From Anisus vortex (Eukaryota > Mollusca > Gastropoda > Planorbidae), in the NCBI GenBank assembly GCA_949126835.1, contig OX421501.1, positions 5,278,499-5,342,498 of the forward strand: a stretch of 64,000 nt of DNA, in the 5' to 3' direction. The notes under the pieces were generated by a model. It worked only from the letters and a program-made list of their open reading frames with translations. It did no database searches and had not been told where the DNA came from. Below are positions 6,032 to 62,800 of the stretch, piece after piece; position 1 is the stretch's first letter; the number at the start of each line of letters is the position of its first letter. The position numbers and the translations under genes were made by a program.

Positions 6032-6461
6032 CGGATAGTAGGAGGAACTCGTAAAGTTAAATATTTTTAATGGGGTAAGGGAGTACACAAAAAAAAAAAA
6101 AGTAGTGGGAACCACTACTCTATGTGCCCAAGTCATTGTAGTCTAATGGCAGAGATATAGATTAGCCGACCTGAAAGAGTCTGGTTAAAATACAAGTCTT
6201 CAAGCTAAACGTCAATTCTAATCATTTAAATAAATAAAAAAGTTTCACTTTTTCAGACTTGACTTTTTTCCGCAGTTTTATCAAATTCACGACATAAATT
6301 AGTTTCGAGCCGAAAAAAACTAAAATCAGACAAATGAAGATAATCATTAGATAGACCAGTATATGTTCTTAACATTCAATGAAAACAATTGCAAACTATT
6401 AACTTAATTTTATGTCTTAAATCGCATTTTACGAAGTGTCCTTATAAAAAGACGCCAGCTG
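6032..6461. other. Nothing recognised
   Basis: AT-rich, with no supportable gene or repeat end. Confidence 0.4.
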
Positions 6462-7306
6462 TAAACGGGTTAAATGGACAAACAACTAATGCAGGAAATG
6501 TTTATTTACAACAGTTTAACGTGAATTAATTGTATATCTCTAATAATTAAATCTTGTAATGAGTACCATAATGCTGATTTATACAAATTAATAATAATTA
6601 ATCAGTAATATTTGTTATAATATTACAAAATATTATTTGTTTGGCATTACTATTGAATTAAATTTTGAAACATTTTTTTATTAAAGGGGGATAATTAACT
6701 CGTTTTTTAATAGATAATATTTCAATTATGTTTCACTTAATTTTTTTTTATAAAAAAAGTAAATGGGCTAAGACTTCATTTTTATAATTATCTAACTGTA
6801 AAAAGGTATTGCAATTAATATAAATTTATGAATAAAGAATTTATATGCACATTTTTAAACATTTCACGAACTACCCAATTTGTATGTCCATCAAATAACG
6901 TTTCTTCTCAACGTCATTCTCTAAGACTTGTTGTAAAACATCAATGAAATAAATTTTCAGATTAACTGGTTACTGGTAACGAAATGTAATCAATATTTGA
7001 ATTTGCTAGATCCTAATAATGACAACCATATTATTAGAGACCGACCGACCGAAAGCAAATTTTTATTCCGGCCGAAAATGAAAACTTACCGAATATTATA
7101 CATTGACTTTCGGCCAAAACCAAAAGTTTAACTACAACTTCGGCCGAAACCGAAAAATAAACCGAAAATGCGAAACAAATGATTTCAAAAGACTGCACAT
7201 TTATGTGTAATATTAACTAGTTTATGGGCACTCCATTTGAGTAAACCATTCTTTGGAGTGATTAAATAATCCGTTATTATTATCTTCATTCTTCTACTTC
7301 ACATTA

Positions 7307-7466
7307 AGTTTCTTATAAGTTTACAGACGTTCTTTCTAGTTAGAAGATTATTAAGCCCAAAACTCCTGAAGGGCGACAGGGATCCGTCGATGGCAGGGAT
7401 AGAACCCGCGACGAGTCAGTTGGTTTTTGGTTGACAGTCCGGTTAACTGACCGCTGGACCAGTGGG
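7307..7466 (-). mobile_element. SINE-B insertion (duplicated at 9769-9928)
   Basis: This ~160-bp segment is absent at the matching point of the sister hAT element (near 25772), so it is a clean insertion. Reverse-complement tRNA-like features (a B-box-like GCGGGTTCTATCC) and the block CCCAAAACTCCTGAAGGGCG recur at 44625 and 62940. It was copied along with the tandem duplication. Confidence 0.7.
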
Positions 7467-7762
7467 GATGTTAATATCTCCTTTTTTTTATCAACACCTA
7501 TTTTCGGTTCTAAATATCCGATTTTGTTACCCATTTTCTTTTCCCCTCTCCCCCGGGCAAAGTAAGTTATAGTTTGGAAAAGACAAATTTGCATTGATTA
7601 TACTAAAAAAAATAATACGAAGGACCATTGATCCTTAGAACGTGGTGAAATCTTTGTAAAAAAACATAGTTGATTTTGGATTAGCAGAAGCTGTAGTGTC
7701 ATGAATTTAGACCTTTATAATTATAATATAAATCAGTGGAAATTAGATCTATATGTTACACA

Positions 7763-8923
7763 CTGTTAAGGATCCATTTATGGACTTAAAGTTATTTAAA
7801 CAAAAGCCATTCCCTCCTCTAAAAATCCCCCATCCCTATTAATTAGAATGTTATGATTGGGAGGATTCAGACAACAAGTCCGATAGTTGTAATGAACTGC
7901 GCCGTGGCTGTCAGTTGCTCTAGTCCACCGAACAGTTTGTCGTTGAGGGTAGCCCCAAGGGGCCAAAAGGCTGACCGGGTAGAAAGATACAGAGGGCAGG
8001 TCTGAAGGACATGCTCCACATTTTCGGGAGCTGTTTCGCAGGGGCACATTTCACTTGCTCCGATTCGTAGTTTGCGGAACATATGTTGCTTTAGCCTGTT
8101 GTGACCAGTCCTTAGTCTGAAGATGATGTTTTGAAATTGGCGGGAGAGTTTGTAGTAAGCATCAATCTTTGGGTTGTTTTGTTGCAGCTCAGACCATCTT
8201 TCGGATTCATTCCTTTTGAGTATTGCCTTTATTTCTTCGGGGTGTAGAGATGGGTCTGTCTGGTTTTGTCTGCCTCCAGCTTTAGCTAAGGTGTCGGCAG
8301 TGTCATTTCCTTCATTTTGTATATGCCCAGGGATCCATTGGAGAACCAGTTCTTTAGTTATTTTGCTCAGTTTTAAAAGTTCTGTACTGAGTGACTGGTT
8401 GATCGGGGCATTTTGTTTTTTTAGAGACAGGAGTACTGTTTTGGCGTCAGAGAAGATGACAATCCGGCTGTTGGGGGATTGAGTGTGGCTTGTTAGTATA
8501 TTTGCAGCAAGCTCAATTGCTTTTCTTTCTGCTCTTTCTGTCACTTCTGTGACAGTGGCTCTTTCTAGGAGTTCTCCATTTGGCCACTCTATGAAAATGC
8601 CGGCTCCTCCATTTTTCAAATCTTTTCCAGTTGACCCGTCAGTATAGACTCTGGTCCATGCATTTTGAGGGTATTGTTCTCTAATGATGTTGTTTACTGC
8701 TTCTTTTAGTATTTCGGGCGTGTAGTCAGATTTTTTTCCTATGTTGCTTAGTTCGTCTCTGATTTTTAGAGTAGGGCTTGGGTCCCAGGGGGGGAAGTGG
8801 CTGTGGGGTTGGGTAGGTTCAATTGCAATGTTTTCTATTTTATATTTACTTTTTAGATGTTTGGCTTCTTGTATAAAATTGGATCTTTGAAGTCTTTTTG
8901 TTGAGGAGGTTTTGAGTTTTGAG
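7763..8923 (-). pseudogene. LINE-N (I/Nimbus-like), truncated first copy of duplication
   Basis: This is the C-terminal part of a LINE ORF on the minus strand (readable 7867-8619 and further to ~8916), identical in translation to the longer copy at 10329-11531. It ends at the tandem-duplication junction, so the RNase H N-terminal side is cut off there. The TSD-like ACACAC and the 3' UTR near 7763 mark the LINE 3' end inside the hAT element. Confidence 0.8.
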
Positions 8924-10224
8924 TAAACGGGTTAAATGGACAAACAACTAATGCAGGAAATGTTTATTTACAACAGTTTAACGTGAATTAATTGTATATC
9001 TCTAATAATTAAATCTTGTAATGAGTACCATAATGCTGATTTATACAAATTAATAATAATTAATCAGTAATATTTGTTATAATATTACAAAATATTATTT
9101 GTTTGGCATTACTATTGAATTAAATTTTGAAACATTTTTTTATTAAAGGGGGATAATTAACTCGTTTTTTAATAGATAATATTTCAATTATGTTTCACTT
9201 AATTTTTTTTTATAAAAAAAGTAAATGGGCTAAGACTTCATTTTTATAATTATCTAACTGTAAAAAGGTATTGCAATTAATATAAATTTATGAATAAAGA
9301 ATTTATATGCACATTTTTAAACATTTCACGAACTACCCAATTTGTATGTCCATCAAATAACGTTTCTTCTCAACGTCATTCTCTAAGACTTGTTGTAAAA
9401 CATCAATGAAATAAATTTTCAGATTAACTGGTTACTGGTAACGAAATGTAATCAATATTTGAATTTGCTAGATCCTAATAATGACAACCATATTATTAGA
9501 GACCGACCGACCGAAAGCAAATTTTTATTCCGGCCGAAAATGAAAACTTACCGAATATTATACATTGACTTTCGGCCAAAACCAAAAGTTTAACTACAAC
9601 TTCGGCCGAAACCGAAAAATAAACCGAAAATGCGAAACAAATGATTTCAAAAGACTGCACATTTATGTGTAATATTAACTAGTTTATGGGCACTCCATTT
9701 GAGTAAACCATTCTTTGGAGTGATTAAATAATCCGTTATTATTATCTTCATTCTTCTACTTCACATTAAGTTTCTTATAAGTTTACAGACGTTCTTTCTA
9801 GTTAGAAGATTATTAAGCCCAAAACTCCTGAAGGGCGACAGGGATCCGTCGATGGCAGGGATAGAACCCGCGACGAGTCAGTTGGTTTTTGGTTGACAGT
9901 CCGGTTAACTGACCGCTGGACCAGTGGGGATGTTAATATCTCCTTTTTTTTATCAACACCTATTTTCGGTTCTAAATATCCGATTTTGTTACCCATTTTC
10001 TTTTCCCCTCTCCCCCGGGCAAAGTAAGTTATAGTTTGGAAAAGACAAATTTGCATTGATTATACTAAAAAAAATAATACGAAGGACCATTGATCCTTAG
10101 AACGTGGTGAAATCTTTGTAAAAAAACATAGTTGATTTTGGATTAGCAGAAGCTGTAGTGTCATGAATTTAGACCTTTATAATTATAATATAAATCAGTG
10201 GAAATTAGATCTATATGTTACACA

Positions 10225-11637
10225 CTGTTAAGGATCCATTTATGGACTTAAAGTTATTTAAACAAAAGCCATTCCCTCCTCTAAAAATCCCCCATCCCTA
10301 TTAATTAGAATGTTATGATTGGGAGGATTCAGACAACAAGTCCGATAGTTGTAATGAACTGCGCCGTGGCTGTCAGTTGCTCTAGTCCACCGAACAGTTT
10401 GTCGTTGAGGGTAGCCCCAAGGGGCCAAAAGGCTGACCGGGTAGAAAGATACAGAGGGCAGGTCTGAAGGACATGCTCCACATTTTCGGGAGCTGTTTCG
10501 CAGGGGCACATTTCACTTGCTCCGATTCGTAGTTTGCGGAACATATGTTGCTTTAGCCTGTTGTGACCAGTCCTTAGTCTGAAGATGATGTTTTGAAATT
10601 GGCGGGAGAGTTTGTAGTAAGCATCAATCTTTGGGTTGTTTTGTTGCAGCTCAGACCATCTTTCGGATTCATTCCTTTTGAGTATTGCCTTTATTTCTTC
10701 GGGGTGTAGAGATGGGTCTGTCTGGTTTTGTCTGCCTCCAGCTTTAGCTAAGGTGTCGGCAGTGTCATTTCCTTCATTTTGTATATGCCCAGGGATCCAT
10801 TGGAGAACCAGTTCTTTAGTTATTTTGCTCAGTTTTAAAAGTTCTGTACTGAGTGACTGGTTGATCGGGGCATTTTGTTTTTTTAGAGACAGGAGTACTG
10901 TTTTGGCGTCAGAGAAGATGACAATCCGGCTGTTGGGGGATTGAGTGTGGCTTGTTAGTATATTTGCAGCAAGCTCAATTGCTTTTCTTTCTGCTCTTTC
11001 TGTCACTTCTGTGACAGTGGCTCTTTCTAGGAGTTCTCCATTTGGCCACTCTATGAAAATGCCGGCTCCTCCATTTTTCAAATCTTTTCCAGTTGACCCG
11101 TCAGTATAGACTCTGGTCCATGCATTTTGAGGGTATTGTTCTCTAATGATGTTGTTTACTGCTTCTTTTAGTATTTCGGGCGTGTAGTCAGATTTTTTTC
11201 CTATGTTGCTTAGTTCGTCTCTGATTTTTAGAGTAGGGCTTGGGTCCCAGGGGGGGAAGTGGCTGTGGGGTTGGGTAGGTTCAATTGCAATGTTTTCTAT
11301 TTTATATTTACTTTTTAGATGTTTGGCTTCTTGTATAAAATTGGATCTTTGAAGTCTTTTTGTTGAGGAGGTTTTGAGTAGCTTGGGTTTTAGAGGGTGA
11401 TGACCTGATGCTTCTAACTTGGTGAAGTGAGTAAGGATTTTGGTTTCTCGTCTAGTTTCCATAGAGCTTAGGTTAGTTGCATCCTCCATTGCTCTGATCG
11501 GGGTAGTTTTCATTGATATATAGCTACACAACCTCGTCGATTATTTTTCTGTGAGACTGCTACTTAAAAAAGAAATAGGTGTGAACGTTTACTCCATACT
11601 CCAAGACTAACGCGCCTCACGTTTAACTCGTGACACA
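10225..11637 (-). mobile_element. LINE-N (I/Nimbus-like) 3' end with RNase H ORF
   Basis: The ORF at 10329-11531 (400 aa, minus) is the C-terminal third of a non-LTR retrotransposon polyprotein. Ribonuclease H motifs follow in order: YTDGSTG (first Asp), the AERKAIE glutamate, FSDAKT (Asp), and WIPGHIQNEGNDTADTLAKAG (His and Asp). A C-terminal CPCE...HVLQTCPLY knuckle comes next. Having RNase H after the RT places it in an I/Nimbus-like clade by family knowledge. The endonuclease and reverse transcriptase are missing, so it is 5'-truncated and not autonomous. It sits inside a hAT element, with ACACAC-type sites at both junctions. The Met at 11531 is only the first Met of a truncated frame. 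Confidence 0.88.
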
Positions 11638-17098: not shown

Positions 17099-17339
17099 AT
17101 GAACATAATTCTGTTTGCACTCGTGTTCCTTATCTTGTCATGCAGCACTCAAGCACAAGGTAGATACTATGCTTTAAATTACTTTAGCTGTTCTGTATAC
17201 ATCTCATCTGGCAGAATATCTGTTGTTTTTTTTCCTGTCTATCCACTGTCTATCTATCCAAGTGTCAAATTTAGCTATCTATTGCTCTGTCTATCCATCT
17301 GTCTTTCAGTCGTCTCTCTCTCTCTCTCTCTGTATACTT

Positions 17340-17427
<88 letters not shown>

Positions 17428-19833
17428 ACTTTTTCTATATGTATGTATGCTTTTAGTTATTTATGTATCTACCGAAGGTCCAGGGTGCATGTAGTCTAGG
17501 ATTAATTCCTGGATATCGAGGCTCTGAGTCAACCCAGCTATGATGCTTTCTTGACATTAGTTGGGGTAAAGTAAAGGCGGCTGTGCATAGCGCTGGCCAC
17601 ACAATCATCACGTTTGACGTGGCCACGGGTTAATATTATATTGAGGTATATTATAAAGGATGCAAATCAATACTACATTTATATTTACACTATAACGAGG
17701 GTGAGATTGCCATAATGAAGATCCAGAATTTGATTCCAGATACAAAACAACAACAGCAGAATTTTGGTACAAGATCTAATGGATACTTGACATTAGTTTT
17801 GGGTGGAAATTTAAAGACGGCTGAACATTCAGCTGGCTACATAATCCCCATGCATGCCGTGTCTATTGAACATGATCCGACATCGATTGCCTATCAACAC
17901 AAATAATTTTTTTTTTGAATTAGCATCATGTTAAAACGAGTAATACATGTAGTTAAATAACTAAACTTAGAAATACTAGAGCAGGGGTCGGCAACCTACA
18001 GACCTGGCACGCAGTGCCCTTTTCAATGGCATGTTCAAGACTTCGAAAAAGACAATTAGAGCATCTACGACAAGAAAAGATTGGGTTAACTTTTAGGCAC
18101 GCTAAATCAAAAGGTTGCCGACCCCTGCACTAGAGGACAAAAAAGCAAAGAGTAAAGAAGTAATAATACATAAGGCATTAAACTCTAATTTAGAAATACA
18201 ACCGAATAACAACCTGTTGCACTGCGCAGATAAACGTAAAACGAAAAACACAATTATTATCCCTTATGCGAGAACAATGCATATAAGTAACTAGCCGGTA
18301 TGTGCCCGGTCCTCCGAACCGGCTAATAGTTATGCTTACATACACTCTAACTACTCAAGCAGTTATAATGAGATTGCCCGCATAAACTACACATTTTATA
18401 TTTTGTATAAGACACGAATTTAAACGTGATGGAATTTTTTATTTGCCCGCTACAACATAAATTACCCATTAAAATCATTACCCATTACCCATTATAACAA
18501 TTTAAAAATTGCCCGCTATAAATTACGACGCAAATTAAAACGTGAATATATTTTGTTCTATTCTTCATAAAGAACATTAGCAAACATTGAAGCAAAGTTA
18601 ATTTAAAATGAATACGCAAAGTTTGATGACGTCATACAAACATTAAACATTAGCTTTGGGTGTTCGAACTTGTAGATTTGAAGAAAAAAGACATTGTAGG
18701 CTAAATAAGCATAAATATTATAGAGTGTAACCAGGACCGCTGCGTTTAAATAAGCTTAGTAAGGCGTCGGTATTACTTCCCGAAACAGAAAAAAATGCGA
18801 TTGCGCATTCTGTTCAATACCTATTCTGTGGACGTATACGACACGAATTAAAACGTGAATGAAATTTTGTCACCGGCAATTGAAAAATTTCCTGCTAAAA
18901 AATTAATATAAGTTCTTTACGACACGTAGGCAATTTAAACATGAATAAAATGTGTTCCCATCATTGATAAAAAAAAATCCATGCACATAGTTTGATGACG
19001 TCAATTTAAACGAATGATAAATGTCCCTTCATTGCTAAAAAATCCATGCGCAAACTTTGATGACGTCATCCTGAAAAAAATCTCAACGCCATCCTATTTT
19101 TTTATTTTGTGAAGACAAATTATAAAAAGTTTTACTGGCGAAGTCAATGTGAATCAAAAGTTGTGTTTTATTCGCGTTTTTTGACCAAACTGACCACTGC
19201 GGTCATTTAAATTTTCTTTAAAACTTGACAGTGTTCACCGCCGTAACGCAAAGAATATTTGTAGCAAATTTCACGTTTTTATGTCCAGTATTTAAAAAGA
19301 TTATGTGGTACGTACATACCCACACACCCATACACACACATATTCCTTTTGAGATTTTTTTTATATATATTTATGATGATCTTTCTTTCTGAGTAGCATC
19401 CGGGCATGGAATGGGTTACGTGAACAAACAAGGAAAACCAGTAACTTAACATCATTTAAAACACAAATAAAATGCGAGACTGGGCTAAGACCACGAAGAA
19501 GCGAAGGACGCAATAATCTTCTTTATAGAAGGAGCGTCTGTTTTATATACGATAAGATAACGGAACTCTATAGCGTTAGAATGTACTTTTTCGAAGAAGA
19601 CTCCATTGGTTTTCAATGAAATAAATATATTAATTTGATTTTATTTTTGTGTCATTTCAGTTCCCAGTAACTGTCTATTGGATCGTGATGCTGGAAAATG
19701 TAGAGGGAATTACCCGAGATATTACTACAACAGGTCAAGGAATATATGTGAACGTTTCGCATACGGTGGTTGCCAAGGCAACGCCAACAGGTTCCTTACT
19801 CTCGCAGATTGTCGTGCCAAATGTATTCTGTGA
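17099..19833 (+). CDS. Secreted single-domain Kunitz (BPTI-type) inhibitor, two exons
   Basis: Exon 1 (17099-17159) encodes a 20-residue signal peptide ([16 protein letters not shown]...) and ends in phase 1 at a GTAGAT donor. Exon 2 (19661-19833, after TTTCAG) encodes one Kunitz domain with the exact six-cysteine spacing C-8-C-15-C-7-C-12-C-3-C, then stops three codons after the last Cys. Total 77 aa. The residue after Cys2 is Arg (P1 position), which by family knowledge suggests trypsin-like protease inhibition; related folds can also act on ion channels, so the target is unknown. The 2,501-bp intron is filled by a (TA)n tract, SINEs, a LINE, a MITE and a Helitron-like element. An AATAAA lies at 20070. 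The coding frame of exon 2 is hidden by a longer overlapping frame that lacks the cysteines. Expression not demonstrable from sequence. Confidence 0.9.
17342..17425. repeat. (TA)n microsatellite
   Basis: About 40 TA units within the Kunitz intron, preceded by a short CT-rich stretch at 17314-17332. Confidence 0.95.
17476..17635 (+). mobile_element. SINE-A copy, 5' part decayed
   Basis: Contains CATTAGTTGGGGTAAAGTAA and GCGGCTGTGCATAGCGCTGG, diagnostic of SINE-A. A second, more decayed plus-strand copy follows at about 17735-17870 (TTGACATTAGTTTTGGGTGG). Both are inside the Kunitz intron. Confidence 0.75.
17982..18127. mobile_element. hAT MITE inside LINE-S
   Basis: A 146-bp element, CAGGGGTCGGCAACC to GGTTGCCGACCCCTG, with 8-bp flanks TACTAGAG / CACTAGAG. 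Same family as 5099-5303. Confidence 0.9.
18291..19379 (-). mobile_element. Helitron-like non-autonomous element
   Basis: Read on the minus strand, the element starts TC (19379-19378) with an AT-rich head (ATAAATATATATAAAAAAAA). It ends in a hairpin (CCGGTTCGGAGGACCGG) followed by CACATACCGGCTAG, with A and T flanking the insertion, as Helitrons do. There is no target duplication, and LINE-S sequence continues on both sides. The interior has repeated GATGACGTCA and AAACGTGAAT modules and no Rep/helicase ORF. The exact ends are set by the host alignment to within a base or two. Confidence 0.65.
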
Positions 19834-32577: not shown

Positions 32578-32585
32578 TATATAAG
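32578..32585 (+). promoter_or_regulatory. TATA box of the knottin-type gene
   Basis: TATATAAG at 32578-32585. The sequence ~30-75 bp downstream forms a plausible non-coding first exon ending at 32652 before GTACGT. The acceptor TTTTACAG lies at 33050-33057, so exon 2 starts at 33058, 100 bp before the ATG. Start of transcription inferred near 32608. Confidence 0.55.
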
Positions 32586-33157
32586 AAGTCATCAAACTAT
32601 TGGGATTTTCAAACCATTCTACATTTTGACAAGTTTCAAGTCTTTGCAAAAGGTACGTCAGTTTCTGTATGTTTTTTTTTGTGTATTTAAGAAATGATCC
32701 ATCTATTACAGTTCCAATTATACTCTTCTTATTGACAACTTAATAAGTGTTTGTATAAGTTATATGTGTTTCAGCTTCTTATATTATTTTTTTTTCTTAT
32801 AGACTATGTCGCGAAGTGTAAAAATAAAACTTCATTCTTATGACAAATTTTTTTTTTACATGCTGGAAATGTGGTAGACATATATTTTCATATTTTAAAC
32901 TAACGACATAACTTCTATTCTAATTATATTATATATGTTCAATCTATTTGTTTAAATCACTTCTTATCTTCTGATACCTTTTGTTACCATTGATGATGTT
33001 CTAAAGAAAAAAACTTACTAAGCCTGAAATTTTGTATATACAATTTTAATTTTACAGATATTTTCCAAAAGTCAATGTTTCAAATCTTAGTAAAGCGTTT
33101 TCAATACTAACTTTACATCAACCTTTATTTAAAAGTAACATCTGATCTTCTTACAAT

Positions 33158-35294
33158 ATGCAGAACCATACAATCATGAACAAACTCAGTCTGATTGCAA
33201 TTTGCATTAGCATCCTGGTCATACAGTCTGCTTACTGCGAAGGTAAGGGTCAGTGTAATTGTTAAATTTACTACAAAGTAAACACTGTATGGGAATGGGC
33301 AGCACAAATTCCAATTGAACAACAAATACAAATAAGAAAATGCAGATGGATAGGCTACACATTGAGAAAACCGACTACAAATTTGACTAGACAAGCTCTT
33401 GCAAGGAACCCACAGGCTGCAAGATGAAGAGGTAGACCCAAGAAAACCTGGCAGAGAGAATTAGAAAAGGATGTGCAGCTGATCGGGAAAAGCTGTAAAA
33501 AGTTAGAGAAGATAGCCAGAGATAGGCAGACATGGAAAGAATAGTTAATTGCATATGCTCCACTAGGAGTTGATAATGGCGAAGAAGAAGAAGAAAGGCT
33601 ATGATTACAAGCAAATACAAAATAAATGCATACGAAATTAATTACAAAAATTCAAATTTAATGTGCTAAGTTATTTCGCATTTCTTTCAATTGCATACAA
33701 TCAGAATTGCTGAATCTAGTGTTAATTTGTTCTGTGTTTGATGCAAATGCAACTCTAAATCTAATCTTCTATATCCATGGTTAGTAACTCTATTGATTTA
33801 GTTTTCTTTTTCGTTCAGTCTATTATTCGCCTGAGAGTATAATAGAAATCTACATGTTTTTTTACATTCCACATTTAAGCATTAACTATTAGACCTAATC
33901 TTATATAAATGATTTTTATTTCATTTTAGTTGTGTTTTTTTATACTAAGATCTCAATGGTGTATGCTATACTTTGTATATTTTTGTTTCAGATGACGATG
34001 CCACCAGCATTGATAAAAGGTACATGTATTTTGTATACTGTTTTTATAGTGTGAAATAATGTAAGGCAGCGTTTACAAGTTGGCAATTCTTATCCACCTG
34101 TATGTTTCTCCAACTAATGCAAGACACCCATCACAGCTAGGAGGACTCACATGGCTTTAGCCGCTAGATTTCCATAAAAACAAAACTAAAAATATAATCC
34201 CCATACATATCAAAATATTGAACACGGTGGCCCGCTCGGCTGGTGTACCGACTGTTCTGGGTTCGAATCCCTGTGAAGGCTAGGATTGTTTTTCCAAGCG
34301 TGTGGAAGTGTACTTCTTAGTCTGCCCATCTCTGATCTGAACCTGACATTAGTTGGGGTAAAGTAAAGGTTCCTGGTCATTGTCCTGGCCACACAATCTC
34401 CTAGCATGCCGTGGCCACAGATACTCGTGAAAACTGCTTCTCCGAAGGATACTTTACTTACCAAAGTATCCTGGAAATGTCTAAGTTACAAGTATGGCAA
34501 ATCTTTTCATATACATCTAGACTCTAGACTAATATTATACAAATGAAACTTCTCAATTCATAAATAAAACGGGTTTCAGTTTGAATAAAATTAATGTTCG
34601 TCTCTTAATAGACAATCGTGTGCTAAATTAGGAGAAGAGTGTATGCCACTACCTTGTTGTGGGGAGTTTCCCGGCGCTCGTTGCACGTGAGTTTCAACAG
34701 GAAAACTTTGTTTTCTTTATAGTTTTCTTTGTTATTATCTTCGATAAATACATATAATATATATAAATGATCCATTTCTACATGTTACACAAACTAACTA
34801 GACTAAGTGATTGAGGCCAGCAACAAAAAAAGCATGAAGTGCAAGGGACGTTATCGTTTCATTGATCAACTAATACTGGTCAGCTCTGACATAAAACGGA
34901 TGTTGTTGTTTTTTTTTATGAGACTAGGAGGATGTGGTACAGACGACTATAAAAAGCTATTTTCACGCGGGTTTTTGACCAAGTGATTTTTTTTTAAAGT
35001 TCTTGATTGAAATAAATAAAAGTTCATTGTTCCCGCGCCTTCCCGCTTCCACTCGAATAAAGATGACATCGTCCGAATGACATTTTATGGACTAGACCAA
35101 CCTTTATATATAGTGTACCTAGACTTGTAATACTGGACTTATTGATAAATAGATTGAACGAATGCATAGATACATATATAATAGATAGATTAATGCACCG
35201 ATAAATAATTATATATTATTGGTAATTTGTGTTTCTTTCTTTTAATAGGAAAATGCCTTATAGAACTGTTAGCATATGTGATACTCCATGGTAA
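33158..35294 (+). CDS. Secreted cystine-knot (knottin/conotoxin-like) peptide precursor
   Basis: Four coding exons join in frame through GT-AG introns: 33158-33242, 33992-34019, 34612-34686 and 35249-35294 (78 codons with stop). Exon 1 is a signal peptide; a second in-frame Met at 33176 could be the true start. Exon 2 is a short acidic pro-region ending in Lys-Arg, a likely prohormone-convertase site. Exons 3-4 encode a mature peptide beginning with Gln (which can cyclise) and carrying C-6-C-4-CC-7-C-10-C, the inhibitor-cystine-knot order also seen in conotoxin framework VI/VII. The last two loops are longer than in classical omega-conotoxins. An intron (phase 2) falls between Cys5 and Cys6. 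It could be a neuropeptide-like, defence, inhibitor or toxin-like peptide; the role is unknown. Introns hold a LINE and a SINE. No fixed polyadenylation site assigned. Confidence 0.82.
33298..33600 (+). pseudogene. RTE-like LINE 3' end in knottin intron
   Basis: Reads RKCRWIGYTLRKPTTNLTRQ, ALARNPQAAR, then RGRPKKTWQRELEKDVQ and KIARDRQTWKE, with an internal stop, ending in a (GAA)n tail at 33581-33594. This is the typical C-terminus of RTE-type ORF2 (family knowledge). It is inserted within the first coding intron and does not disturb the splice sites. Confidence 0.85.
34221..34460 (+). mobile_element. SINE-A, full length, in knottin intron
   Basis: The tRNA-like head AACACGGTGGCCCGCTCGGC with B box GGTTCGAATCC, then TTGGGGTAAAGTAAAGGTTC, and a GGATACTTTACTT tail. 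A decayed minus-strand piece precedes it at ~34080-34165. Confidence 0.85.
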
Positions 35295-45042: not shown

Positions 45043-46346
45043 ATGACAATGAAAACATTACCTGTCATACTGGTAGTCATTGGACTTTTGGTCACTATGT
45101 CTCTGGCAAGTAAGTAAAGGCTACCTTTTGTTTTACTAATTGAATATGTATCTGTACATGCCCTTGTATGTATAGTTTTCGCCTTATGATAGCTCTATTC
45201 ATTGTGCCGATGAAACTCATTTCGATGGATTAATTAAAAAAAAATTGTATGCACAAATCAATTCAGCCAGAAATGTCTATCAATTTTTGTGGTGTGTGGG
45301 GTAGGGAGGGAAGGGGGCTCGGTGACTGAGCCGGCTGCGCGTTTGGCTGGCGTACCAAAGGTCCTGGGCTCGAATCCTGTTCCCGGGTCTGCAAGGTGGA
45401 AATTACGTTGGCCAAATCAATCCCTTAGTATCTCGCGGCCACAGAAACTGGTGGAACTCTGCTTCGCTCTGGCACCCTTGGATCAATTTGTTCTGAAGGG
45501 GAGACTTTACTTTACTATGGAATTGGTTGAAGTCACGTCGTTACAACGTGAATCTCTTTACGTTGGAGCAATTCCTTTTGGGCCATATTTATGTTTAACC
45601 AGAAAGCTCTCGTGCAATTTAGTGCGAATTAAGAAGTGGATTTGTTGCCCTGCTATATGTTGCCCTGCTATATGTTGCCCTGCTATATGTTGCCCTGCTA
45701 TATGTTGCCCTGCTATATGTTGCCCTGCTATATGTTGCCCTGCTATATGTTGCCCTGCTATATGTTGCCCTGCTATATGTTGCCCTGCTATATGTGGCAT
45801 TTCTTTTTCTTCTCCACAATAGCAATGTAACTAACTAATATCAGTAAAAAAAAATGTATAGCGTTTTTTAAGCTTGTAGGAATATGTAAAAAAAAAATTT
45901 ATTCAATTTTTTGATTATGATTAAAGAATTTTTGGTTATGCACCGAATAAGAAAAAAACAACTGAACGGTATTTGTAAAGTTGGCTACGGAAAGAGTGTA
46001 TTTCTCTCTGAAATTGTTTTCTTGCAGCTCAAAAATTATGATATTGTTACCCTGCTGACCCGCGACCTTTGAAGAAATGTTTAATTGTATTTCTGAAATA
46101 GTTTTGCTTCTACCCGCCTGACCCGGTATCTTGCAAGGAATGTAAAGTTTTTTTCTATGAACTATGTTTGCAGCACCAAAATCTTGCTATTACCCAGTTG
46201 ACCCGGGACCTTGCAAGCAATCCATCCGAAGGTACTTCTACAACAGTTCGACAAAGAGCTGCCACATCTTCTATTTCGGCGGGTGTGCAGGAAACACGAA
46301 CAACTTCGAGACGGTTCAGAAGTGCAATGAAGTCTGCGAACGTTAA
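45043..46346 (+). CDS. Secreted single-domain Kunitz (BPTI-type) inhibitor 2, two exons
   Basis: Exon 1 (45043-45109) encodes a 22-residue signal peptide (MTMKTLPVILVVIGLLV...) ending in phase 1 at a GTAAGT donor. Exon 2 (46174-46346, after GTTTGCAG) encodes the mature domain with spacing C-8-C-15-C-7-C-12-C-3-C and ends two codons after the last Cys, 79 aa in all. Exon 2 is 173 bp, exactly the length of exon 2 in the gene at 17099, and the intron phase is the same, so the two are likely paralogues. The residue after Cys2 is Lys (P1), again favouring trypsin-like targets by family knowledge. AATAAA at 46469. The 1,064-bp intron holds a SINE-A, a 15-bp minisatellite and broken copies of the exon 2 start. 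Confidence 0.92.
45312..45512 (+). mobile_element. SINE-A, internally deleted
   Basis: The tRNA-like head CTCGGTGACTGAGCCGGCTG with B-box-like GGCTCGAATCC, then the distal body CTCGCGGCCACAGAAACTGG and a tail. The central TTGGGGTAAAGTAAAGG block is missing. Confidence 0.75.
45647..45797. repeat. 15-bp minisatellite, ~10 perfect units
   Basis: TGTTGCCCTGCTATA repeats head to tail with no visible variation. Since 15 is divisible by three, all frames stay open (e.g. Cys-Cys-Pro-Ala-Ile repeats), giving a false 177-aa ORF. Uniform units imply recent expansion. Confidence 0.95.
46028..46143 (+). pseudogene. Broken duplicates of the Kunitz exon 2 start
   Basis: Two segments resemble the acceptor and first ~45 bp of exon 2: 46021-46072 (TTGCAGCTCAAAAATTATGA ... 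CTGACCCGCGACCTTTG) and 46105-46143 (GCTTCTACCCGCCTGACCCG ... CTTGCAAGGAATG). The true exon reads CAGCACCAAAATCTTGC ... GTTGACCCGGGACCTTGCAAG. Both remnants lose the frame and end quickly, so they cannot encode a domain. Confidence 0.7.
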
Positions 46347-47730: not shown

Positions 47731-48663
47731 TTTGATTCAATAAAATATTTCCTTGCCAGTTGAAAAAAACGGATGTGCGTAAAATATAAATTGTTGATGC
47801 TATAATTATTCGTCTTTATTCTTTTTTTGATTATTTATAAAGCTTTAAATATGCCTCATTAGTCTACATTTTCCTACAATTTGTTTCTTTTTTCATTTTC
47901 GTTTAAAAAACAAAAATTGAGACTGGCCTAGACCAAATATCTATAAACATATTTTATATCTTTATTTAACGTTACATATTTTAAATAATCTTACTGAAGA
48001 TAAAAGGCATAATGGGCCTGTTATCAAATCACAAAAATGAAAAGGTCAAGGAACGCAAGTGCTGAGCTCTATTATAAATATTGGTAAAATAAACTAAACT
48101 CCATTTTGTGTGTGTGTGTTATATTGATGAATCTATCATTATAATTAACTTACAAAAACTAGCTTTGGCGACTTAGCTAATTATTGATTTTAAAAAGAAC
48201 GAGAAAGTAATTTTGAAAATAATGACATTAATTTCTATGTTGATAGACGACTGTCTTTAAGACCTACATTTAAACACCTGTTGAATTAAAAAGTGCTAGC
48301 ATGCTGCTTTCGTTAAGATCAATTAAACGCGGTGTAGGAATATTATTAGTCAACGATTTCTTGTATTAATTATTTTAAAAAATTACAACTAAAAAAAACA
48401 ACATTGTCTAGACTTAATAATACCTTTCTGATGCATACGTTTTATCATATTATTAATTTTTTGTCTTATTAGTACATTGTATAATTAAATATGGATTTCT
48501 ATTAGTCGTCGTGTGTGCATAGTATAATATGGAATAGATAATTATTACTTAAGAGAATAAGTCAGTGTTAAAAGTAGGACAAGAATCTTCTGTATAGAGC
48601 GAGCGCCTGTAGCATGTAAAGAATGCCAACAGACTTTGCAATAATCTTCATACAGCGTTGATC
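47731..48663. other. Upstream region of GPCR 1
   Basis: AT-rich with no gene. 48582-48625 (AGAATCTTCTGTATAGAGCG) resembles a LINE-S tail lying just upstream of the GPCR start. No promoter motif assigned. Confidence 0.4.
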
Positions 48664-49704
48664 ATGGAGAGGGACTGGATTGACGAATCGAGGGTGTGGT
48701 ACATATCTGACGAGGTCCTGGAGTACCTGAATGTGTCTCTGTCCATCTCATTCCACGGAGTCCTGGCCGTCTTCGGCGTTGTGTCCAACGCAGTGAGCAT
48801 GGTCGTCTTTGTCCAGCTTCGACTTCGGTCCAGCATGAGCGTTGGGCTTTTCGCCTTATCCTTGACGGATTTCTTGGTCACGGTATTTCAGCTGGCCAGT
48901 TGCTGCTCCTACCTCATTGATGTTGTCTATCCCGATTGTCCTGTGGATCCGTGGACGTTGGGTGGCTACATTTTCAGTTGGGCGCACTACGAGGCGTATC
49001 TAATATCGTGTTGGATAACTACGTATCTATCGGTTGAAAGGTGTTACTGCGTGGTCTCCCCTTTCACTGTCCGTCAAACTTTCACCAGAACCCGGTGTAT
49101 CTGGTTTATCATAGTGATCTACTCAATCCATATCGGTATCCATATACCGATCTTCGTGTATGCCGAGCTGAAATGGACATCCGTGGCCAGTAGTGTTAAC
49201 TCCACTTTGTCCGAAATATATATACTAAGAATAATATTGAATGATAACTCAGCCAGATGGGAAACATTATCTGACATAGTCGCCGGCATAAGTTTCTTGC
49301 TTACATCACAAGTGATACTAATTGTTTGCACTTTGTTCATGATAGCTTCTCTGAAAATTTCATCGATGATACGCCAAAACTCCGAAGACTTTGGGAAAAT
49401 CTCTGAAAACCTCGGGAATAGTTCTTCAAATGTAACGGATCTTTTGTCTCCCAGAGAAAAAAGAATGGCCAAAACAGTTCTCTGTCTGGCTGTAATAGTG
49501 ACCGCTTGTAACATCCCAAGATTTATGACAACTGCTGTGCATCACATAGTGCCTGGGATGAATGTGGGTGCAATGCAGAACTTGCAGATATTTTTGTGGG
49601 ATGTCTCATACATGTTTGGCACAGTCTGCTGCAGCTGTAACATATTTGTGTATTTAAAGCTTAATTCTAACTATAGGGGAGCTCTTGTGCGCTTCTTTAA
49701 ATAA
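48664..49704 (+). CDS. Rhodopsin-class GPCR 1, single exon, gastropod chemosensory/peptide-receptor type
   Basis: 346 aa from ATG at 48664 (an in-frame TTG six bases earlier is not a credible eukaryotic start). Seven hydrophobic segments lie at about residues 27-50, 59-82, 102-128, 145-166, 203-230, 267-290 and 306-333. The DRY box is replaced by SVERC (123-127), and TM7 has N-x-x-x-Y (N326-Y330) rather than NPxxY. Likely N-glycosylation sites at N23 and N179. A Ser-rich third intracellular loop (233-265) precedes a basic stretch before TM6. A paralogue of 58240-59280, with the same length and shared blocks such as MSVGxxALSxTD and TSQVILxVCTL. By family knowledge these resemble gastropod chemosensory-type and peptide-type receptors; ligand unknown. 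The lack of introns fits either retrocopy origin or family habit. Confidence 0.9.
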   Translation: MERDWIDESRVWYISDEVLEYLNVSLSISFHGVLAVFGVVSNAVSMVVFVQLRLRSSMSVGLFALSLTDFLVTVFQLASCCSYLIDVVYPDCPVDPWTLGGYIFSWAHYEAYLISCWITTYLSVERCYCVVSPFTVRQTFTRTRCIWFIIVIYSIHIGIHIPIFVYAELKWTSVASSVNSTLSEIYILRIILNDNSARWETLSDIVAGISFLLTSQVILIVCTLFMIASLKISSMIRQNSEDFGKISENLGNSSSNVTDLLSPREKRMAKTVLCLAVIVTACNIPRFMTTAVHHIVPGMNVGAMQNLQIFLWDVSYMFGTVCCSCNIFVYLKLNSNYRGALVRFFK

Positions 49705-56975: not shown

Positions 56976-58239
56976 TTCATAAGGTCCTTTTTCTAAAAAA
57001 TAGTTTCACCGATTTAAAACACACTTATTGTACATTATACGTTTTCTAAAAGAAAATAACATAGACCAAAAACATTGACATGAAACGTTTACATACAATG
57101 ATTGATTTAAAACAATAGTTAACTTTTGTTTATGGTATATATTTATAAGTACACGATATAGAAAGCCTTCCACTACAGATGTAATTATAGATTTTCAACC
57201 GTATTTATAAACGATCAACGTTTGAATAGTATTTAATGCAGTTTATGGTTTTACTTGAAACTCACTAAACAGTAATTAGGCTACTATTCAATCAATAATG
57301 ATACGGCTAAATGCTGCTCTATAGACTCAACTTTATAAAGTTATACTCATAAAACATATCATTACTCCGTAGACTCATAAAAGTAAATGAATACACTGTA
57401 CAGGATACTTGTATACCATTCACTGGACGATTAAACACAGTTAATGATCTTTTAATTTACTGTAAAATATAGGCTACTGTGTTTCAACGTTCTTTTTAGC
57501 TGACTTTAATTTATATCTCTCGCTGAACAACAAAGATTAAAAATATCCAGTATTTTCTTCTCCGCATGAGTCAAGAATCATTCAACAGTAACATTTGTTT
57601 ACCGTAATGTAACATTAATGCCAAACACAAAGATTATAGATTCACTAAAAGTAAAAACAACTACTGTGTAATAAAAGACACGGAATAGATAAGACACGAA
57701 AACAATATTATTCTAGATGCGAAAAGCACCCGCCAGTGTTATAATGCTTTCACTTATCTATAAAGTTTATTTTCAAAACACTGATTTGTAAATACCTTTC
57801 AAGTAACTATGACATCCATTTTATCGTATGTGTATGTTTTATTCCTATTAGTCGATTTATAAGAATAATTAATTGTGCTGTGTAGGAAATGAGAATTGTA
57901 GATTTATCTTGCATTTATATATTAAAACCAAATTTATTAAGAAAAGTCCATCCATACTTTTTGTAGATCATTGAAAAATTTATAGGCCTAACTTGAATGT
58001 TAAAATCCTTTATCCTGCTTCGATAATATATTACACGTATTCGTTGCGAAACACATATTTGGTATAACCAAAGACTATTAAGTGATGGAGCGCATGCTCA
58101 ATTTTTAGAGCTTAAGTGTTAGATATTGTCATATGGCAAAAAGATGAATGAACAATGTTTAATGAGGAAAATAAAATAACTTCTGGTGTACTTATTCGGT
58201 TACAGAATTTGATAAGCAATTAACGTAAAAGTCTAAGGG
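56976..58239. other. Upstream region of GPCR 2
   Basis: AT-rich with no gene. 58072-58130 matches one end of MITE-A (AGACTATTAAGTGATGGAGC ... TTTTTAGAGCTTAA) without its partner. No promoter motif assigned. Confidence 0.4.
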
Positions 58240-59280
58240 ATGGGTCAATTGGTGTCCGACGATGACCTCTCAGTCGAGCTTCTAAACACACTGAGAGTTT
58301 CTCTAGTCTTTCCCATCAACATCACAGTCACTGCCATCGGGCTACTGGCCAATATCGTCAACATGGTCGTGCTGACCACTCTGGGCGTCGCCAACTCCAT
58401 GAGCGTCGGCGTGTTGGCCCTCTCCTTCACGGACCTGCTGGTCAGCTTCCTGCAGCTGGTCATGTATGTTCTCTACGTTCTGAACAAAGCGTACCCAGGA
58501 CAGAAGGTGGACCTGGCAGCGCTGGGGTCGTTCGGCGTCGGCTGGATGCGGTACGCGTGCTTCTTCGTCTCCAGCTGGATCACCACGATGATCTCCGTGG
58601 AAAAGTGCGTATGCGTGGTGTGGCCCTTCATGGTGAGACGGGTATTCACCAAACACCGCAGCCTCCTCGCCGTGGTCTTCATCTACTTTGTCCACATCGC
58701 CCTCATCGCGCCGATCTACTTTGTCCAGGAGTTGCGGTGGACGATTCTGCCGCCGCAGGGCAACGACACCGCCCCGGGTAGACCCATTTTCACGTTCGTC
58801 TACTCCGAGGAATTCGTCAACGTGGAGACAATCGTGAACAATGTCTACGCCGTCGGGCTCGCAGTGACATCACAGGTGATACTGCTCGTGTGCACTCTGT
58901 GGATGATATACTCTCTGAAGTCCTCGTCTAGAATCAGGCAGAGCACAAACCACGAGACATTCGTCCCCAACGAGAAAACAGAAAATGCTCTGTCGTCCAG
59001 GGCGTCCGCTTTATCTGTCCGAGAGAGGAAGTTGGTGAAAGTGGCCCTTGGGTTGGGCGTCGTCCTCACGGCCTCCAACATACCGAGATACGCCGTTGTT
59101 GCGACGTATTACGGAATTCCAGGGATGAGCAGTGGAGCTTATAAAAATCTCTCAGACTTTCTCTGGGACACTACAGATTTTTTCAGCATCATCAACTGTT
59201 CGAGTAACTTTTTGGTCTACTGGATGCTGAATACAAACTTTAGGAAGTCATTTTATGAGATTTTCTGTGGCAGTAGCTGA
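58240..59280 (+). CDS. Rhodopsin-class GPCR 2, single exon, paralogue of GPCR 1
   Basis: 346 aa from ATG at 58240. Seven hydrophobic segments at about residues 20-48, 55-80, 100-125, 141-163, 200-226, 264-287 and 303-330. The DRY position reads SVEKC (119-123), and TM7 carries N-x-x-x-Y (N323-Y327). Possible N-glycosylation at N27 and N175. The third loop (228-262) is Ser/Glu-rich. It shares with GPCR 1 the blocks MSVGxxALSxTDxLV, TSQVILxVCTL, IPRxxxx, and LWDxxxxF near TM7. The first two thirds are strongly GC-rich in third positions, unlike the surrounding AT-rich DNA and more so than GPCR 1. Ligand unknown. By family knowledge it is a gastropod-expanded chemosensory/peptide-receptor type at the cell surface. 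Confidence 0.92.
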   Translation: MGQLVSDDDLSVELLNTLRVSLVFPINITVTAIGLLANIVNMVVLTTLGVANSMSVGVLALSFTDLLVSFLQLVMYVLYVLNKAYPGQKVDLAALGSFGVGWMRYACFFVSSWITTMISVEKCVCVVWPFMVRRVFTKHRSLLAVVFIYFVHIALIAPIYFVQELRWTILPPQGNDTAPGRPIFTFVYSEEFVNVETIVNNVYAVGLAVTSQVILLVCTLWMIYSLKSSSRIRQSTNHETFVPNEKTENALSSRASALSVRERKLVKVALGLGVVLTASNIPRYAVVATYYGIPGMSSGAYKNLSDFLWDTTDFFSIINCSSNFLVYWMLNTNFRKSFYEIFCGSS

Positions 59281-59839: not shown

Positions 59840-62800
59840 TCAATTTATAAAACCAAAATTTTTACTTAAAATATCTGGTGCATACATATCACAGATTGCT
59901 TTAAGTGTCTGTGTATCAGATATCTTCATAGGGTGGAAAAAGTGCTTAACGCTTGAGTAGATTCTGAAGGGATTTTTGCGATCCGCATTCCATAGACTTT
60001 GGCCTCGAATCAAGAACACACTGGTCTTTTGTTCCAGTCCTCGCACAACCGTTGCTACAGTAATTGACAGAAAAGCGCGATTCTGGTAGAACTTTTTCAA
60101 GTACCAGATCGCTTCTCTTTGTTTACATGCAGGAATGTAGTACAGGTCACTGGTCGAAACCTCAATCAAATCCTTACTTCCTGTAAAATTTGTCAAGTTG
60201 TCAAAGAAATTTGTTGCGTTTATGTACCCTGGAACATGACGAGAATTCTTTATATCACTCATGGTTTTGTAAAACGCCTGTTTTCCAACAGGGACCTGCC
60301 ACCAGTACCAGGATTGTACAGATTGGGTAACGTTGACTCGATCAATATCTTCTGTAATCCAAAAGTGATCTTTGCTTGTGTTTAGAAATTCCCAATGTTT
60401 GAACATGACATCGTCTCCAAGGATGAGGTAACCTTTGACATTAAGGTTCATCTCCATTGCTTTGATGGCACAGAGGTACCCGACATATCCTTTCTCAAGG
60501 CTGGCCTCGATAAAACTAACCTGCTTCCCCATGCGCTTGGTTGCCGCTAAGAAGTTGTTGGCATTGTCTCCACAGTAGAAGAGGTTTGGAAATACTTTGC
60601 TGTACAAAGCGTCAAGATAAATTACATTGTCGTAATGCCCGGGAAAATTAAAAACAACTATCACTAAGATATCATTGTAATAGTTTAAGACGGTAGCACG
60701 ACCCAATGACCAATTTATATTGGTAATATTCGGACATATTTTAGATATCCTCTCTGTAGCTTCCTGTGAAATCGATTTAGAAAAGTTGGCTTTGTTAATC
60801 ATTTGTAATTCTTGCTCAGCTGGTAGAAATATTACTTTGGTCAAACTTGTTTTGTCTTTATATATGTCATCATGGAGTTCGTTAAATTTTTCCAGCGGAA
60901 GTGTTTCATTGTTGCTTAATATTGCAATTTCTCTTACTCGACTAGGCTCGGTATATCCTACATCTAATAAATCTTCCAGCCATAGACGAGTTAGCTCAAT
61001 TTCTTCTTGTCTCCAGAACTTTTGATCCACCATTGATGTGGTCAGCTCAAGAACACACCCAAAGAATGATACTCTTGCTGGACATGTCCAGTTGGTCAAA
61101 AAACTGATCAGAGATTCGGTTTGGAAGTACATATCCTTTTCATCTTTGGCATCGTCTAAGTAAGAATGAGGACTTCGGTTCTGATAGGCGTTAGCTGGAA
61201 AGAAAGCCAGTCTGTCTCCAATCTCCCACATGAGTCTCTGTGCCCAGTACCCACGCCAAATGTCACACATTCTGAAAGTGGTGCCAGTTGGGATAAGCAA
61301 AGCCCAGAAAGCTCTTTCGTGAAACAAAGTGTTTTGGGAGTTGAAAGGGCAGAAAACGCCTTGCGGGAGGATGACAGGGGGCGCGCGAGGGTCGAAGGTC
61401 ACGTTGATTGGTGCTGTGACAGATTTCCTGGTCAGTCTAAAGATGGCGTCAACATCTGGATCTCCGTTGACAATACCTTGTTGTATAGTAGGCGTAGTCC
61501 AATGGCTGGATAACCTGTGATGATAGAATGTCGTTATTAATAATTCGATATAAACAATATTCTATATGCCGTTTTATTTTATAATAGCTCTTTAGCATTT
61601 GAACTTTACAATTATTTTCTCGATATGAAATACAAAAAAAAGTATTTCTTTTTGTCACGTATAAAAAAAATAATTTTTGTTTACTGCAAGTGTAAGATAA
61701 AGAGTAGGCTATAGCCTAATATGATAGTAATACAAATATACTACGTTAATGTTAACAAAGAAATAATATCTTATCTTATACATTACAGACCCTCCTATGA
61801 GGAATATAATTGCGTCCTACGCACAATTGTGGTAAGCATATTCCGAGGTATGAAAGTAAATATTTTTTTGGGGAACAAAAATACATTATTGAAACTAATT
61901 TAGAAAACAGCAATAAATAATCATGGGTTTAAAGAAGTAGTAGAAATTGGAGGCGAATGATCTATTACAGAACAAAAGCTGTTCGTTGGCAAGAGCGCCA
62001 TTAGCATGTACCAATGCGAAAGATGCCATAAGCATTCCGGGTCCATACTTCAAAACAATGACTAGAGTGTGAGGACAGTTTGTAAATGTTCGTGTATCGG
62101 TGTTTCGCGCGCGCGTGTGTGTGTGTGTGTGTGTAGGTCAGTTGTTGTTTAACGTGGACAGAGAGCGTGCAAATGAGGTGATGAAATGAAGCGTGAAATT
62201 ATCTATCGAGGCAGTGTGGGTGTGTAATGTGTTTGGACGGGAACTGTGTGCGATGACCGCTTGAAGTGTGGCTGGGGCTGTTGCTTTTTGCTGGTATTGT
62301 CAAAGTTACTGGTTAGTTATTTCGTTCTTGTTATTTGGTTATTTTATGATTTGATGTATTGAATTTGGTTTCATTGATACGAAGACTTGAGATGGTGTCT
62401 CTAATAAACTGCACGACCCAACAGTCACCACACAGAGACAAGTTCTGTCCAACAGTCTCTTTGCTAGATACAAACCTTGACTGGAACTTCAAGAAAGTTC
62501 TGACCAGTCTTACAGAAATTATGACTTTGCTTTTTCTTTATTTTACAGAGATCATAAAAGTAAATCATTGAGACCGAAAGTAAAATACAGTATACCCGTC
62601 GGACCAAATTGATATCTCAGGCCGGTGAAGCAGAGCTCACCACTTTAAATGCTCACGGCAATAGTAGGCGAATGAATTTGTGTTAAGCATAATGTCATAG
62701 CGTCTCTACTTCACCATGACTGATTAATACTTTTTATAGCTGGGTAGACTCAAGAACACCTTTCCAGAACCAGAAAAAAAATATAGCTTACGACAGGATT

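Follow-up and report, generated by a model that had tools for sequence, protein, structure and literature searches.

A predicted cystine-knot peptide gene with its cysteines in conotoxin order lies on the plus strand at positions 32578-35294 of the window, i.e. the whole 64-kb stretch of DNA that was analysed. It had been pointed out in an earlier note made from the sequence alone, and its presence was confirmed. Five exons, the first presumably non-coding and the other four coding, were read directly from the DNA. As that note had claimed, the four short coding exons join in frame into a signal peptide, an acidic pro-region ending in Lys-Arg and a mature peptide with the cysteine spacing C-6-C-4-CC-7-C-10-C. 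The joined frame measures 234 nt including the stop codon and is open throughout, giving a 77-residue precursor. The positions of the exons, together with those of the other features of the window, are listed in the table.

Features of the 64-kb window around the predicted cystine-knot peptide locus
Feature	Position	Strand	Remarks
Single-Kunitz gene: signal exon (phase 1) and Kunitz exon	17099-17159, 19661-19833	+	Pfam PF00014
TATA-like box TATATAAG	32578..32585	+	weak evidence
Presumed non-coding exon 1	32608..32652	+	5' end placed ~30 nt past the TATA-like box
Exon 2, 5' UTR and signal peptide	33058..33242	+	phase-1 donor gtaagg
Exon 3, acidic pro-region (most of DDDATSIDK) and AG of the Arg codon	33992..34019	+	phase-2 donor gtacat
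Interspersed repeat inside the pro/mature intron	34258..34443	+	seven further sites in the window match parts of it at 78-89% identity
Exon 4, end of the Lys-Arg site and Cys1-Cys5	34612..34686	+	phase-2 donor gtgagt
Exon 5, Cys6, C-terminal Asp-Thr-Pro-Trp, stop TAA (35292-35294)	35249..35294	+	
Possible polyadenylation signal ATTAAA	35580..35585	+	weak evidence
Two rhodopsin-type receptor ORFs	48613-49701, 58237-59277	+	Pfam 7tm_1; no visible introns
STELLO-family glycosyltransferase, long ORF	59843-61561	-	E 1.2e-39

The introns between the coding exons measure 749, 592 and 562 nt and are in phases 1, 2 and 2, respectively. The second, at the junction of pro-region and mature peptide, cuts the Arg codon of the Lys-Arg site between its second and third bases (AG/A), while the third separates Cys5 from Cys6 and is the extra intron previously described there. 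The statement that no long ORF reveals the gene was also borne out: among the ORFs listed, the longest stop-to-stop piece that holds a coding exon has 39 residues. The splice sites had been called good. Two of them count against the model. Exon 3 ends in a weak donor (gtacat), with an in-frame alternative six bases on (34020-34026), at 34026, whose use would add Tyr-Ile at the N-terminus of the mature peptide. As for exon 2, its acceptor (tttacag before 33058) is a by-eye reading that fails the acceptor rule of the analysis, the acceptors satisfying this rule being those at 33136 and 33164. Exon 2 carries an ATG at 33158 and an alternative Met2 at 33176; with the 33164 acceptor, translation would begin at Met2, and a start there gives a 71-residue precursor with a more ordinary signal peptide. 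The presumed exon 1 ends in the donor AAAAG/gtacgt after 32652.

The TATA-like box and the polyadenylation motif were given little weight, since both recur in the window: TATATAAG is found three times per strand, and its looser form 160-174 times, whereas ATTAAA occurs 57-87 times per strand (87 on the plus strand). That this is a live gene, for which the TATA box had also been invoked, is likely, the box itself adding almost nothing. Open stretches were also seen in the intron between exons 2 and 3 (33266-33544, plus strand); Pfam gave no match for them, and we take them to resemble the end of a retroelement protein.

The mature peptide has 39 residues. Its six cysteines stand in the C-C-CC-C-C order required of an inhibitor cystine knot (knottin), which is defined, in the available part of PMC6832493, by the disulphides C1-C4, C2-C5 and C3-C6, the third passing through the ring. 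Four basic and four acidic residues give the mature peptide a computed pI of 6.21, and its C-terminal Trp is directly followed by the stop codon, without a Gly for amidation. The signal peptide reaches a hydropathy peak of 3.44 over 11 residues.

Besides the knottin locus, the window holds a second hidden secreted gene, judged genuine from its Pfam match. This gene is located 13-15 kb upstream and is predicted to encode a protein of 77 residues with a single Kunitz domain (PF00014, E 3.2e-19), for which 139 solved sequences were found at E up to 0.001. It has an Arg at what is presumably the position of the inhibitory residue. Small split genes do therefore occur in the window, as the Kunitz gene was read in the same way and has Pfam support. 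A wider scan for a signal exon followed by a cysteine-rich terminal exon returned the Kunitz gene only, with at least one hit in 51 of 400 shuffled windows; the scan alone thus proves nothing, and it is the Pfam match that counts as evidence.

Downstream of the knottin gene are the two receptor ORFs and the STELLO-type ORF. Seven relatives of the second receptor (ORF 58255-59277) were found in the protein database at E up to 0.001, the closest being 68% identical. Six of them are named, coming from Biomphalaria glabrata (53% and 35%), Bulinus truncatus (47%) and Physella acuta (41%, 39% and 38%), and two relatives are called neuromedin-U receptor 2 or 2-like. Since these six are all from freshwater pulmonates, the window must come from a pond snail or a near relative and not from a cone snail, which upholds the initial impression of a non-Conus snail. 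Freshwater pulmonates are grazers with no known venom gland, and a venom role is unlikely in such a pond-snail host.

Two repeats were also observed elsewhere in the window. A direct repeat at about 6461-11540, with an offset of 2462 bases, is 100% identical in at least four pieces (D4, D9, D11 and D18, among the 20 of 38 families listed), and could stem either from a tandem duplication of recent date or from an error in assembly. It contains the look-alike ORFs 7870-8931 and 10332-11540, of which the latter carries an RNase H domain. The other, at 45643-45795, is a perfect tandem repeat of 15 bases in 10.2 copies.

When the precursor was compared with 5.8 billion proteins, no candidate passed the filter of three shared five-residue words. 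This negative result is weak because the method demands these words: a fast-evolving orthologue is invisible to the filter, and the database, which does include pond-snail proteins, has as closest relative of the neighbouring receptor a protein only 68% identical, so that the snail's own proteins are apparently missing from it. The Pfam search for toxin and knottin families, named earlier as a check, gave no family for the precursor up to E 10, with filters that discard most weak matches. It carries some weight, since a shrimp agatoxin-like peptide of 44 residues is picked up by that library (Toxin_9, E 5.2e-7). In the PDB sequence search, no match was obtained for the mature peptide, and the six matches of the precursor were all at chance level (E >1). 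The PHROGs search gave nothing relevant, three stretches of viral contigs fitted a pattern with none confirmed, and no hit came from scanning the window for Rfam families and tRNAs. In the open-licence literature, searches for conotoxin-like peptides in Biomphalaria and for cystine-knot peptides of pulmonate snails found none, and no title on pond-snail knottins was seen among the matches listed for knottins and snails; one review of aquatic antimicrobial peptides mentions both conotoxin and Biomphalaria. The signal peptide was also compared with nine of the 12 conotoxin signals of a published Table 1 (one of its four T rows; O1 absent). The top score, with the O2 signal, was equalled by 19 of 2000 shuffles and, being the best of nine references tried, is not significant after correction.

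A chain search was conducted on both strands under loose splice consensus rules. A chain had to start with an ATG-containing exon encoding a hydrophobic segment and to continue, with or without a pro exon, to a dibasic site and then a C-C-CC-C-C core, in which an intron before the last cysteine was allowed. A single chain locus was found in the real window, with 24 variants of the upstream exon ends, including the model presented here. No chain was found in a first set of 200 dinucleotide-shuffled windows or in the reversed window, while chains did turn up in two of 4000 additional dinucleotide shuffles and in one of 3000 windows drawn from a third-order Markov model. These rates (3 of 7000 in all) are only rough, as the thresholds were chosen after the gene had been seen. 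Since randomised windows do yield a chain now and then, some chance chains are expected genome-wide.

The occasional null chains, along with the absence of homologue support among the 5.8 billion proteins passed through the word filter, would fit open segments joined by accident, or a gene in decay, with no expressed peptide. Such an origin appears unlikely. The frame, intron phases, splice sites, signal peptide, Lys-Arg site and six cysteines all agree, with no stray stop, and the first-listed endings of the three null chains are simpler, with every cysteine within one exon. Chance alone is an unlikely source of the exon chain, and the locus is most likely a real gene, to judge from its sequence. 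A search for paralogous exons elsewhere in the window gave a best match at E 0.10 and no second copy.

The locus is probably a functional freshwater pulmonate gene for a small secreted knottin, with an endogenous signalling or host-defence role. The best reading is that it belongs to the broad kind of secreted knottins rather than to the conotoxins, and it is not demonstrably a toxin. After predicted splicing of the five exons, the signal peptide would direct the precursor to the secretory pathway, with a probable cut after ...SAYC, and an enzyme of the furin/prohormone-convertase type would cleave after Lys-Arg. The newly exposed N-terminal Gln would probably cyclise to pyroglutamate, and three predicted disulphides (C1-C4, C2-C5, C3-C6) would lock a compact fold. 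The knottin could then act extracellularly on a channel, a receptor or a protease. Signalling is slightly favoured over defence because the peptide is near neutral (pI 6.2) and not cationic; this charge counts mildly against a membrane-active antimicrobial role, and the choice between signalling and defence is not firm.

The order of signal, pro and mature parts across successive exons recurs in conotoxin, mussel CRP-I and CCWamide/agatoxin-like genes. Each of these three families fails in a defining feature when set against the snail gene. Two of them, CRP-I and CCWamide, would be special cases within the secreted-knottin explanation.

It is doubtful that the gene is the gastropod counterpart of the CRP-I knottins, a family of defence peptides in mussels. 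Its plan is the same, with non-coding, signal and pro exons, a mature region after Lys-Arg and the C-C-CC-C-C order; the matching of single CRP-I exons to signal and pro-region is our own interpretation of the available part of PMC10138031. According to that part, the CRP-I array is C(X3-6)C(X1-7)CC(X3-4)C(X3-5)C, placed after a KR/RR site, the mature peptide is encoded by the fourth and final exon, and the family genes are clustered. In the snail gene, the last two loops have 7 and 10 residues, beyond the reported 3-4 and 3-5, the mature peptide is shared between exons 4 and 5, and this window yielded no further copy.

Still less probable is a six-cysteine offshoot of the protostome CCWamide/agatoxin-like gene in which the hairpin disulphide (Cys6-Cys7 of eight) was lost. 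Its appeal lies in the pro/mature intron, which falls at the position conserved in the family: in the part of PMC8557429 consulted, an intron is placed between bases 2 and 3 of the basic codon of the cleavage site. The 10-residue Cys5-Cys6 gap, with a Tyr at position 5, also recalls the Cys5-Cys8 gap of the family, and the peptide ends in Trp. In all 103 family proteins fetched, the eight-cysteine core has the spacing 6,6,4,1,6,1 and the Cys5-Cys8 gap is 10 residues long, with Trp at position 5, a uniformity partly built in because these proteins were chosen by words shared with the query alignment, in effect with its shrimp row. They came from a search with a two-row profile of this precursor and a shrimp peptide, and the latter accounts for them; 97 are named, all arthropod by name, and six are unnamed. 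Passages of PMC8398477, PMC9552230, PMC4888303, PMC3890597 and PMC12604039 gave no molluscan CCWamide sequence that could be used for comparison. These resemblances were spotted after the fact, and several features stand against them. The snail peptide has six cysteines vs. eight, other loops of 4 and 7 vs. 6 and 4, and neither an amidated aromatic C-terminus nor the Gly for it, and it is spread over two exons, whereas the mature peptide is in the last exon in the accessible text of PMC8557429. BLASTP found no alignment with the shrimp agatoxin-like peptide, and in the MAFFT alignment of the two the cysteines are paired in another register. The core profile gave 1.5 bits, a score that 224 of 1000 cysteine-fixed shuffles reached or surpassed, and the full-length profile -3.0 bits, with 437 of the 903 scored shuffles as high. 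These profile scores are no better than those of shuffles, and CCWamide kinship is a lead and not a result.

The fuller scenario of a six-cysteine CCWamide descendant, which would have kept the cleavage-site intron and the aromatic loop, lost the hairpin disulphide and amidation, and gained a new intron within the knot, is very improbable. If true, the peptide would be an endogenous snail signal and, because conotoxin genes have the same intron phases, it could be an intermediate from a neuropeptide scaffold to a conotoxin-like six-cysteine knot.

Membership of, or direct kinship with, the conotoxin superfamilies as a venom-type ion-channel toxin is the least probable reading, and a remote one: the precursor layout, the framework VI/VII cysteine order and the top, though not significant, O2 signal score speak for it, as do the first two coding introns, whose phases of 1 and then 2 are shared by all superfamilies studied except I2 and, for intron 2, T (PMC3862624), but the neighbouring receptor has freshwater pulmonate relatives, no Pfam conotoxin or toxin model was found up to E 10, the introns are below 0.8 kb vs. 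all above 3 kb in the genes of PMC3862624, and a phase-2 intron between Cys5 and Cys6 splits the mature domain, to which the third exon of conotoxin genes is as a rule devoted entirely (PMC8152183). The label "conotoxin-like" of the earlier note is apt only for the layout of the precursor, the order of its cysteines and the phases of its introns; Pfam gave no match, the mature domain is split, and the similarity of the signal peptide is unconvincing.

The cystine-knot peptides known from snails are mainly venom components of cone snails and of other predators such as Vexillum (for the latter, PMC9363990). A knottin gene preserved intact in a grazing freshwater species would help to ask which endogenous gene gave rise to conotoxin-type peptides, the more so as it would combine conotoxin-like intron phases with a neuropeptide-like cleavage-site intron. 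It would also be an example of a small secreted gene missed by ORF-based annotation. The intron-split knot and the mixed family resemblances are the main points of interest, which we consider moderate.

Concerning the known systems, the secreted-knottin gene proposed here is like the O-type conotoxin genes (framework VI/VII) in its signal/pro/mature precursor, C-C-CC-C-C order and intron phases 1 then 2, and unlike conotoxin genes in its extra Cys5/Cys6 intron, short introns and presumed non-coding first exon. With the mussel CRP-I genes, it shares a non-coding exon 1, a signal exon, a pro exon and a mature region after a dibasic site (PMC10138031, in part), while having one more intron and longer Cys4-Cys5 and Cys5-Cys6 loops. 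As for the CCWamide/agatoxin-like genes, the likeness is in the short precursor, with the mature peptide last, and in the cleavage-codon intron (from portions of PMC8557429 and PMC7212414), as well as in the 10-residue last gap with an aromatic residue at position 5 and the C-terminal Trp; cysteine number, the other loop lengths and the missing amidation Gly set the snail peptide apart. Finally, the Vexitoxins of Vexillum, in the part of PMC9363990 available, have conotoxin-type precursors outside cone snails, some with a cystine-knot motif. They resemble the present gene in that respect, by description, and differ from it as venom-gland products of a predatory snail.
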